Source: Thermomicrobiales bacterium (GTDB lineage Bacteria; Chloroflexota; Chloroflexia; Thermomicrobiales; UBA6265). Taken from it: 64,000 nucleotides of DNA. The stretch is from contig JAHBVL010000004.1 of NCBI GenBank assembly GCA_019637585.1, forward strand, positions 186,001 through 250,000, read 5' to 3'. Shown in pieces: positions 12,735 to 53,573 of the stretch. Every line of letters starts with the position of its first letter. Within the stretch, counting starts at the first letter, position 1. The position numbers were made by a program, and so were the translations under genes. The notes under the pieces were generated by a model. That model did no database searches. It was not told the origin of the DNA and worked only from the letters and a program-made list of their open reading frames with translations.

Positions 12735-12877
12735 CCAGGGAATCCCTCATTCACGCCTGATTTCCGGCCAGAATGCATCCAAGGATACTCGCCAGGCATC
12801 GACGCGACGGGCGGGGACGATTTCGGCGGTTTCCGGTTTGTCGCGTATGGCAGACTAGCGCCGTAGCCACGCGGCAC

Positions 12878-12920
12878 CCGGACGAGGTGCGCCGTACCCG
12901 GTCTGCGACAAGACGGCGTG
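12878..12920 (+). ncRNA. Guanidine-III riboswitch (ykkC-III class)
   Basis: The segment matches the ykkC-III aptamer closely as I remember it: CCGGACGAGGTGCGCCGT, then ACCCGGTC, a short variable TGC linker, and GACAAGACGGCG. The conserved blocks can form the two-helix pseudoknot in which the ACGGCG end pairs with CGCCGT. The aptamer ends four bases before the AGGAG ribosome-binding site (12924-12928) of the exporter gene, so guanidinium binding could free or mask translation initiation. The gene downstream is a SugE/Gdx exporter, the expected target. Confidence 0.88.
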
Positions 12921-12935
12921 AACAGGAGACGTGAG

Positions 12936-50581: not shown

Positions 50582-50637
50582 ACGCGGTGCCCTCAGTGTG
50601 ACGAGCGGCTCAATGACGATGATTCTACTTCGCGCTC

Positions 50638-50679
50638 CCGACTGCGGACGCCGGGCTTCGGACTGCGGACCTCGGACTT
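50638..50679. repeat. Heptamer array D (CGGACNN units)
   Basis: Six consecutive heptamers, CCGACTG, CGGACGC, CGGGCTT, CGGACTG, CGGACCT and CGGACTT, end eight bases before the aspartokinase promoter. Their reverse complements fit NNGYCCG, the form found at 53503-53558, so the two arrays bracket the lysC-asd genes in opposite orientation. Confidence 0.75.
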
Positions 50680-50686
50680 CTCCCGG

Positions 50687-50715
50687 TTGCACCCCGCGCC
50701 ATCCCCCGCTATAGT
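50687..50715 (+). promoter_or_regulatory. Sigma70-type promoter of the aspartokinase transcript
   Basis: TTGCAC (50687-50692) and TATAGT (50710-50715) are separated by exactly 17 bases. Transcription should begin around 50722, only a few bases before the leader-peptide ATG at 50725, so the leader is almost leaderless. Confidence 0.7.
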
Positions 50716-50724
50716 GACTCCGAT

Positions 50725-50829
50725 ATGAACGCGACCTGTGCAGCGACCACCCGAATCGGCTCGACCGGCATCATGACTACCATCATGATTACCAAGCGCG
50801 TGCCTGTCGGGGCCCGGGTGAGTGCATAG
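50725..50829 (+). CDS. Leader peptide of the aspartokinase gene (Thr/Ile/Met-rich attenuator peptide)
   Basis: This 34-codon frame contains seven Thr, four Ile and three Met codons (including the start), concentrated in Ile-Met-Thr-Thr-Ile-Met-Ile-Thr-Lys at codons 16-24. All of these residues are end products of the aspartate pathway that the next gene opens. The stop is 33 bases before a strong terminator. This is the layout of thrL-type transcription attenuation, in which ribosome stalling on scarce tRNAs would prevent terminator formation. There is no Shine-Dalgarno sequence, consistent with a near-leaderless start. Confidence 0.7.
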   Translation: MNATCAATTRIGSTGIMTTIMITKRVPVGARVSA

Positions 50830-50862
50830 CGAGAGCGAAGAAGCACAAACGGCGGCAACGAC

Positions 50863-50895
50863 AGGCGGGAGCGAAAAGCTCCCGCCTCTTTTGTT
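50863..50895 (+). terminator. Intrinsic terminator/attenuator before aspartokinase
   Basis: AGGCGGGAGC-GAAAA-GCTCCCGCCT forms a perfect 10-bp stem, followed by CTTTTGTT. Flanking GGCAAC and GTTGCC can extend the pairing. It lies between the leader peptide and the aspartokinase start, so it must be bypassed for expression. A competing hairpin GCCTC...GAGGC (50897-50914) overlaps its 3' side and the ribosome-binding region. Confidence 0.8.
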
Positions 50896-50927
50896 GCCTC
50901 CTGGCGAAGAGGCGGAGACAACGATCG

Positions 50928-52373
50928 ATGATCGTTCTGAAATTCGGTGGCACATCAGTCGGCAATTTGGAACGCGTGCGCAATGCCGCGGCGATCATCG
51001 AGAGTCAGCCCATGCCACGCGCGGCTGTTGTCAGCGCGGCCAGCGGCGTGACCAATCTGCTCCTCGACGCGGCCAGCAAAGCCGCGTCTTCTGATTTCAG
51101 CGGGATGGAAGCAGTTCTCGCCGAGATCGAGGGAAAGCATTTCGCCGTCATCGATGGCATCGATTCTCCTGAAGAGCGCCGCGGCGCCCGGGATGTCGTC
51201 GATCGCTTGCATGCCGAGCTGCGCGACAGTCTCGGCCAGGCTTCCGAATCGCGAATGGTGCCTGGCGCGTTGTCCGACCGCATTGTCTCCATCGGCGAAC
51301 GCGCGATGAGCGCGATTATGGCTGCGACCTTGCGCGATCGCGGCACCCCGGCGGTCCATCTCTTTGCCAACGAGGTCATCGCCACCGACGATCGGCATGG
51401 CAATGCCCGGCCCGACCGGGATCGCACCCGGGAACAGGCGGACGCTGTCGTGCGGCCCCACCTGGAAGCCGGAGCGACCGTTGTGATGACCGGATTCATC
51501 GGTGGGGCGCCCGACGGTTCGATCACCACCCTGGGGCGGGGTGGTTCCGACTACAGCGCCACCCTCCTTGGCGCCGCGCTGATGGCGGACGAAGTGCAGA
51601 TCTGGACCGATGTTCCCGGTGTGCTCTCCGCCGACCCCCGTCAGGTCAAGCATGCCCGGGTAGTGCCGCAGATCAGTTTCGATGAAGCGCAGGAGCTGGC
51701 CCATTTTGGCGCCAAGGTGCTCCATCCGCGCACGATTCGCCCTGCGGTCGCCGTCGACATCCCCGTTCGTATTCTGTCGACATTCGCGCCAAACGAACCG
51801 GGCACCCTCGTCACCCGCGAGTGGTCCGGCAAGCATCTGAAAGCGGTCACGGCGATGCGCAATCTTCAGTTGCTGACGGTCGATGTGCCGGAGCTGGAAG
51901 ATCTCTCCGGAGCGGCGGCCCGGGTTTTTGGCACGCTCTACGAGGATCGAGTCGAGGTGGTGCTCGTGTCGCAGGCGTCGTCCCGGCGTCGGATGACTTA
52001 CCTGATCGATGGCGCCAGCTCGGGTGGGTGCGAACCGGTGCTGGATCGCCTCGCCGACTCTTTGCAGAACTTCGATGCCGTGATCAACTGCACGCCCGAC
52101 GTGGCGATTGTCGCGGCGGTCGGGCATGGAGCGGCCGAGCAGCCAAAGGCGCTGGCACAGCTGCTGGCGGCGTTGGGCAGAGCGGGGGTGACGGTGCTGG
52201 CGTCGAGCCAGCAGACCTCCAATGCCGCGCTGGTTGCCGCGATTCCGGCCCAGGATGCCGACAAAGCGGTGGAGGCGGTGCACACCGAGTTCATCCGGCC
52301 GCTTTCTGAAAATGGGGGATCGCGCCGGCGCCGGCGCGCTGATCTGATGGGTGAATCCGTTCGTGTGGGGTAG
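50928..52373 (+). CDS. lysC: Aspartokinase
   Basis: The 481-residue protein begins MIVLKFGGTSVGNLERV, the aspartokinase signature, and contains GFIGGAPDGSITTLGRGGSDYSATLLGAALMADEVQIWTDVPGVLSADPR near residues 190-235. Two C-terminal ACT-domain regions (from ~320 to 460) should sense amino acids. It phosphorylates aspartate at the head of Lys, Thr, Met and Ile synthesis. The ribosome-binding region GAGGCGGAGAC overlaps a hairpin. The asd gene follows after 62 bases. Leader peptide and terminator upstream indicate attenuation on top of feedback control. Confidence 0.93.
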   Translation: MIVLKFGGTSVGNLERVRNAAAIIESQPMPRAAVVSAASGVTNLLLDAASKAASSDFSGMEAVLAEIEGKHFAVIDGIDSPEERRGARDVVDRLHAELRDSLGQASESRMVPGALSDRIVSIGERAMSAIMAATLRDRGTPAVHLFANEVIATDDRHGNARPDRDRTREQADAVVRPHLEAGATVVMTGFIGGAPDGSITTLGRGGSDYSATLLGAALMADEVQIWTDVPGVLSADPRQVKHARVVPQISFDEAQELAHFGAKVLHPRTIRPAVAVDIPVRILSTFAPNEPGTLVTREWSGKHLKAVTAMRNLQLLTVDVPELEDLSGAAARVFGTLYEDRVEVVLVSQASSRRRMTYLIDGASSGGCEPVLDRLADSLQNFDAVINCTPDVAIVAAVGHGAAEQPKALAQLLAALGRAGVTVLASSQQTSNAALVAAIPAQDADKAVEAVHTEFIRPLSENGGSRRRRRADLMGESVRVG

Positions 52374-52435: not shown

Positions 52436-53494
52436 GTGAGCAGTGACAAGCGCATCCCGGTAGCAGTTCTCGGAGCCACGGGGAGTGTTGGGCAACGGTT
52501 TGTCCAGCTTCTGGAAAACCACCCCTGGTTCCGGGTCGCCGAGCTGGTCGCCTCGGAGCGATCAGTGGGCAAGACCTACCGGGAAGCGACCGACTGGCGG
52601 CTCGATGCCTTCATGCCGGCGGAAGCGGCCGATCTGCCGATCAAAGACTATGGCGATCCCATTGCCAGCCCGGTCGCGTTTTCGGCATTGCCCGGCGAAG
52701 TCGCCAGCGAGATCGAGCAACGCCTGGCCCGGGAGGGTCATGCCGTGCTCTCCAACACCTCCACTCATCGCATGGAGCCTGACATTCCCCTGCTGATTCC
52801 GGAGGTGAACGCCGATCACGTCCGGGCCATCGAGGTGCAGAAGGCTGGCCGGGGGTGGTCGGGTTTCATTGCCACGAATCCGAACTGCTCCGCCATTCAC
52901 ATGGTGCTGACGCTCAAACCTCTTCTGGATGCGTTCGGCATCGATGCGGTGATGGTCACGACGATGCAGGCCGTTTCCGGCGCCGGATATCCAGGGGTGG
53001 CGTCGCTCGACGCGATCGACAATGTCGTGCCATTCATTCGCACGGAAGAAGAGAAAATGGCCGAGGAAACGCAAAAGCTCCTCGGCGGCTGGGACGGCGA
53101 GTTCCGGCCAGCGCCGGTGGTGGTCAGCGCCCAGTGCAACCGGGTCTCGGTCCGGGATGGCCACACCGAATGCGTCTCCATCAGACTCGGACAGAATGCG
53201 TCGCCCGACGAGGTGGCCGACGCGATGCGGTCGTTCGCGGGCAGGCCGCAGGAGCTGGGACTTCCCAGCGCGCCGAAACGGCCCATCGTGGTTCGCGATG
53301 AGCCGAACCGCCCGCAGGCGATCCTCGACCGAAACACCGAGAACGGTATGGCGTCGGTGGTTGGCCGCATCCGTCCCTGCCCGATTCTGGGAGTCAAGTA
53401 TGTGCTTCTCGGGCACAATACGATCCGCGGCGCCGCCGGTGCGAGCATCCTCAATGCCGAGTTGTTCAAGGTCGAGGGGTTGCTGCCGGTGTGA
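52436..53494 (+). CDS. asd: Aspartate-semialdehyde dehydrogenase (archaeal/fungal-like branch)
   Basis: The 352-residue protein has the NADP motif VLGATGSVGQRFVQLLENHPWF, LVASERSVGK, the nucleophile motif ATNPNCSAIHM near residue 144, and QAVSGAGYPG. A His/Arg-bearing CNRVSVRDGHTECVSI near residue 240 completes the active site. The branch with TNPNCS and these spacings is the one shared by archaea, yeast and some bacteria rather than E. coli Asd. It reduces aspartyl phosphate made by the upstream kinase. GTG start; AAGGAAAGG lies upstream. Confidence 0.92.
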   Translation: MSSDKRIPVAVLGATGSVGQRFVQLLENHPWFRVAELVASERSVGKTYREATDWRLDAFMPAEAADLPIKDYGDPIASPVAFSALPGEVASEIEQRLAREGHAVLSNTSTHRMEPDIPLLIPEVNADHVRAIEVQKAGRGWSGFIATNPNCSAIHMVLTLKPLLDAFGIDAVMVTTMQAVSGAGYPGVASLDAIDNVVPFIRTEEEKMAEETQKLLGGWDGEFRPAPVVVSAQCNRVSVRDGHTECVSIRLGQNASPDEVADAMRSFAGRPQELGLPSAPKRPIVVRDEPNRPQAILDRNTENGMASVVGRIRPCPILGVKYVLLGHNTIRGAAGASILNAELFKVEGLLPV

Positions 53495-53502
53495 GGTGGC
53501 CG

Positions 53503-53558
53503 GCGTCCGGAGTCCGAAGCCCGGAGGCCGGAGTCCGTAGCCCGAGGTCCGGAGTCCG
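53503..53558. repeat. Heptamer array E (NNGYCCG units)
   Basis: Eight consecutive heptamers (GCGTCCG, GAGTCCG, AAGCCCG, GAGGCCG, GAGTCCG, TAGCCCG, AGGTCCG, GAGTCCG) begin eight bases after the asd stop. They are the reverse orientation of array D upstream of lysC. Confidence 0.75.
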
Positions 53559-53573
53559 GAGCGCTGCGCTCAC

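Follow-up and report, generated by a model that had tools for sequence, protein, structure and literature searches.

The thrABC operon of Escherichia coli is controlled by the thrL attenuator, represented in Rfam by the Thr_leader family, in which the leader peptide is rich in threonine and isoleucine codons. The principle of attenuation is textbook knowledge, and Corynebacterium and Streptomyces provide earlier examples of leader peptides with a leaderless start. In Corynebacterium glutamicum, the transcript of ilvL, the leader of the ilvBNC operon, starts one nucleotide from the leader start codon, and its regulation is described by a three-hairpin model of terminator, antiterminator and anti-antiterminator (PMC11857589). 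In Streptomyces lividans, a leaderless start is found in the leader peptides leuL, trpL, ilvL, thrL located before thrS, and metL, and no clear terminator was found there for thrL and metL (PMC8079986). No relevant open-access paper on leader-peptide attenuation in Chloroflexi or Thermomicrobium was found.

The locus considered here precedes the lysC and asd genes in a window of 64,000 nucleotides (the whole stretch of DNA that was analysed) from a bacterium of the order Thermomicrobiales. It very probably acts as a ribosome-mediated transcription attenuator of the lysC-asd operon. A preliminary description had proposed a thrL-like attenuator before a monofunctional lysC and asd, and this proposal is strengthened by the conservation of the frame, the terminator and a covarying antiterminator. 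The element resembles E. coli thrL in its Thr/Ile-rich leader peptide, its terminator and the control of the first step of the aspartate pathway, whereas its target, a monofunctional lysC with asd or asd alone, and its predicted leaderless start are different. It is like ilvL of C. glutamicum in its predicted start geometry, in the three-hairpin model proposed for it and in having control codons for more than one amino acid, but ilvL belongs to a branched-chain operon, carries Val/Leu/Ile codons and differs in lineage and sequence. The S. lividans leader peptides, the threonine and methionine ones included, have the leaderless start that is predicted here and differ in their target genes. Convergence with thrL is likelier than descent, because the phylum is distant. 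In the open-access literature, no earlier description was found of an attenuator in Thermomicrobiales with lysC-asd or asd alone as its target.

All elements of the locus lie on the forward strand, and the promoter, 34-codon frame, terminator and lysC-asd unit hold, on re-reading, as they were first described. The −35 hexamer TTGCAC (50687–50692) and the −10 hexamer TATAGT (50710–50715) are separated by a 17-nt spacer, and the ATG at 50725 is placed 9 nt past the −10 hexamer. The leader peptide frame of 34 codons (50725–50829; MNATCAATTRIGSTGIMTTIMITKRVPVGARVSA) is predicted to be leaderless or to have a 5′ UTR of a few nucleotides. Its control codons, Ile-Met-Thr-Thr-Ile-Met-Ile-Thr-Lys, occupy positions 50770–50796, and they form the putative P1 hairpin (50770–50789; ATCATGA/TCATGAT). 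The intrinsic terminator with its T-run (50863–50895) consists of a hairpin at 50863–50887 with 10 pairs, 8 of them G-C, a loop of 5 and the tail CTTTTGTTG. The fold of the leader RNA is better by 3.6 sd than those of shuffled versions, and within the 64-kb window only this short frame combines a −35/−10 pair, a near-leaderless start and a terminator. Downstream, lysC (50928–52373) encodes an aspartate kinase of 481 aa without a homoserine dehydrogenase domain, followed by asd (52436–53494), encoding an aspartate-semialdehyde dehydrogenase. The Asd protein is of the TIGR00978 (asd_EA) type, matching that model far better than asd_B, the model usual for bacteria. Short intergenic repeats of the GGACTGCGGACC / GGAGTCCGGAG type lie on both sides of the operon (50636–50680 and 53496–53560), and similar degenerate repeats occur upstream of lysC in the relatives L002 and L030.

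Conservation was followed in the family of the window, f1, in which the lysC upstream region could be read in 22 genomes. A promoter, a Thr/Ile-rich leader and a terminator precede lysC in 22/22 of them, an arrangement shared too consistently to be due to chance. Relatives without a conserved frame or terminator, which the preliminary description had named as the observation speaking against it, were looked for, and both features were present in every one of these genomes. The leaders are mostly 33–40 codons long, the start codon lies 170–187 nt from the T-run in 20/22, and in 19/22 the stop codon follows at 21 or 24 nt from where segment 2, the 5′ half of the antiterminator, begins. By comparison, the frame, codon content, terminator, antiterminator pairing, P1 and promoter geometry thus appear as conserved features. 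In L010 (1292–1462), the loss of 1 nt from a G run close to the end of the leader removes the stop codon, so that the frame would cross the terminator; this is possibly an assembly error.

A conserved, structured 5′ leader with a terminator would also be expected if a metabolite riboswitch or a tRNA-binding T-box terminated the transcript and the frame were incidental. Such an explanation is very improbable: what is conserved is the fixed position of the start codon relative to the promoter, codon identity and the reading frame, segment 2 lying a multiple of 3 nt from the start codon in 21/25 sequences. Moreover, no Rfam riboswitch aptamer, T-box or leader family, Thr_leader included, matched the leader region of the window (E up to 5) or 15 relatives (at gathering), and the element as it occurs across the order matches no RNA family in Rfam.

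The proposed switch is based on a sequence at the end of the leader, CCTGCCGGTCCG or a variant of it, and its complement CGGATCGGCAGG, which stands ahead of the terminator. The general form of this antiterminator pairing is CCTGCCG:CGGCAGG. A search for a competing antiterminator had been suggested from the window alone, and the covarying pairing CCTGTCG:CGACAGG is present there, between segment 2 (50802–50809; GCCTGTCG) and segment 3 (50859–50866; CGACAGGC). Segment 3 overlaps the 5′ arm of the terminator by 4 nt, and therefore the two structures are mutually exclusive. Variants of the two segments change jointly, as CCCGCCG:CGGCGGG in L013, CCTGCCGTCGTGG with CCACGACGAGCAGG in L012 and CCCACCGGCTT:AAGCCGGTGGG in L030. 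Segment 2 paired at −24.8 kcal/mol with its own segment 3 and at −19.8 kcal/mol with those of other genomes (0/20000 permutations), and at −23.9 versus −18.1 when only distinct pairs were considered (0/20000), in permutations that treat the genomes without regard to their relatedness. In the alignment, 87% of the antiterminator cells are paired, with double changes at 5 pairs, compared to 21–41% in slid controls. The terminator (89% of cells paired) and P1 (73%) jointly contain 12 doubly changed pairs, a result seen in 0/500 shuffles; in P1, the loop of which is ATTAC, ATGAC or ACTAC, double changes occur at 7/9 pairs. Such compensatory changes support both the antiterminator and the control-codon hairpin. 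A possible protector pairing of segment 1 (50762–50770; CGACCGGCA) with segment 2, through ACCGGCA, was read from the sequence of the window and is weakly supported across relatives (own versus swapped, p about 0.02).

The same pairings bear on the proposal that the frame encodes a functional small protein, located ahead of lysC by chance, and that an ordinary terminator ends its own transcript. The frame is indeed conserved together with its start, stop and terminator. The peptide, however, varies widely outside its Thr/Ile residues and its Pro-Ala-Gly end, and this end is dictated by the RNA of segment 2. The L011 leader reads through segment 2 in a different frame, yet the pairing of the segment is kept. 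With a terminator and an antiterminator that exclude each other and covary, a small protein of this kind is scarcely credible, and attenuation of lysC-asd by the leader is the preferred reading.

From the sequences we infer a transcription start, translation of the leader, ribosome stalling and a direction of response, which can be arranged as follows. RNA polymerase would start at or beside the leader AUG, and a ribosome would load on the 5′ end of the RNA without a Shine-Dalgarno sequence and trail the polymerase. When charged tRNA-Thr or tRNA-Ile is scarce, the ribosome would stall in the Thr/Ile/Met run at 50770–50796 and melt P1, leaving segment 2 free to pair with segment 3. As segment 3 holds part of the 5′ arm of the terminator, such pairing would let transcription enter lysC-asd. 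When threonine and isoleucine are plentiful, the ribosome would reach the stop codon, which lies 24 nt from where segment 2 begins, and mask the 3′ part of this segment; the terminator could then form and lysC-asd would be turned down. This scheme was modelled crudely, with the ribosome represented as an unpaired mask and folding taken at equilibrium, and the antiterminator probability was about 1.0 for a ribosome stalled at a codon for Thr or Ile. With the ribosome moved to the stop codon, the median was 0.35, but in the window the value fell only to 0.72. In the same model the antiterminator also forms at equilibrium without any ribosome. The drop caused by a ribosome at the stop codon is, within the model, in the direction expected of attenuation.

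The amino acids sensed were considered through the codon content of the leader core, defined as the 16 codons before segment 2, against the codon shares in lysC and asd. Thr codons make up 28% of the core (background 4.6%), Ile 24% (4.9%), Met 10% (2.3%), Lys 1.7% (2.3%) and Leu 0.6% (8.5%). Thr codons occur in each of the 46 leaders tabulated, and Ile codons in all f1, f2, f4 and f5 leaders and in only 8/16 f3 leaders. With threonine in every leader and isoleucine in most, threonine would be the constant signal and isoleucine the second one. Met codons are frequent but variable, being found in 19/22 whole f1 leaders and missing from the core in 6/22. The initial suggestion that the leader senses every end product of the aspartate family is not supported as a whole: sensing of threonine and isoleucine is supported by codon enrichment and sensing of methionine is possible, whereas sensing of lysine is not supported, its codons being at background, about 2%. 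A narrower interpretation, to which we give a minor though real share of probability, is that the attenuator responds mainly to threonine and the Ile and Met codons are incidental, for example kept by the pairing of P1. The universal Thr codons, the half of the f3 leaders without Ile and the constraint that P1 also places on Ile/Thr codons are in its favor, but isoleucine contributes almost a quarter of the core codons and is never missing in the other four families.

The promoter was left out by a consensus scanner, TTGCAC being a 3/6 match to TTGACA. In relatives, its conserved form is TTGC-17-TATAGT: TTGC is kept in nearly all of them, and a TATAGT/TATGAT-like −10 hexamer is present in 22/22 family genomes. 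The pattern TTGC-N18-20-TATNNT-N5-9-ATG occurs 2 times in the 3.9-Mb genome, versus 0 for the reversed-pattern control. The gap between the −10 hexamer and the start codon, 9 nt in the window, is 6–7 nt in nearly all f1 relatives. Such a 5′ end is too short for a Shine-Dalgarno sequence, and hence the f1 leaders are predicted to be leaderless or nearly so, with transcription beginning at or within a few nucleotides of the AUG. This agrees with the earlier deduction from the geometry of the window promoter, which is kept across f1. In f2 and f3, the 5′ UTR is longer, about 40–70 nt in the leaders that were read, and the predicted leaderless form is thus a feature of f1 and of one f4 genome. If the prediction is true, the f1 ribosome would load on the nascent 5′ AUG and couple to RNA polymerase at once. 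The occurrence of both forms, one predicted to be leaderless and one with a 40–70 nt 5′ UTR, on related elements of one order offers a natural comparison for studying the influence of Shine-Dalgarno-independent initiation on the coupling of transcription and translation.

Beyond f1, the position of the element changes. No such leader was found at lysC in f2 and f3, and a covariance model built from the lysC leaders (R1) finds the element before asd in the families without it at lysC. A Thr-rich leader, an antiterminator-like complement and a terminator precede asd in 5/5 f2 genomes and, as judged by eye, in 17 genomes of f3. In both families lysC is not linked to asd, and the element stands before asd alone. 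In f4 and f5, it precedes lysC-asd. The element therefore goes with asd. The asd upstream regions in four other families of the class contained no such element, and R1, within its reach, returned nothing convincing beyond the order in 158 genomes of the class and 400 of the phylum. Tentatively, and with less than even confidence, we propose a lineage-specific, order-wide attenuator tied to asd, which would integrate threonine, isoleucine and, in some genera, methionine, and would be leaderless in f1. Apart from this proposal, the element offers a clearly delimited candidate regulatory RNA, open to experimental testing, at the first steps of the aspartate pathway, which leads to the synthesis of threonine, isoleucine, methionine and lysine.

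Weak R1 matches in L079, L084 and L136 were rejected as chance, representing terminators behind coding ends and repetitive codons. In the f2 genomes L080, L086 and L087, hom (homoserine dehydrogenase) is the divergent neighbour of the attenuated asd. In the genome of the window, no clear Thr/Ile leader was found upstream of hom or ilvB. The ilvB upstream region (L137) contains a TTGACA-like promoter, a CATTAT with an ATG about 6 nt behind it, and a frame of about 45 codons with a terminator, without a clear Ile/Val/Leu run; it is perhaps a second near-leaderless leader. Upstream of trpE on the reverse strand of the same genome (L141), GGGTGGTACCGCGGCA...TCCGTCCCTTCAGGGACGGGGGTTTTTTG precedes the trp genes and resembles the antiterminator and terminator of a T-box; Rfam at gathering made no T-box call on it. 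A Guanidine-III riboswitch aptamer is located at 12855–12922 (63.5 bits).
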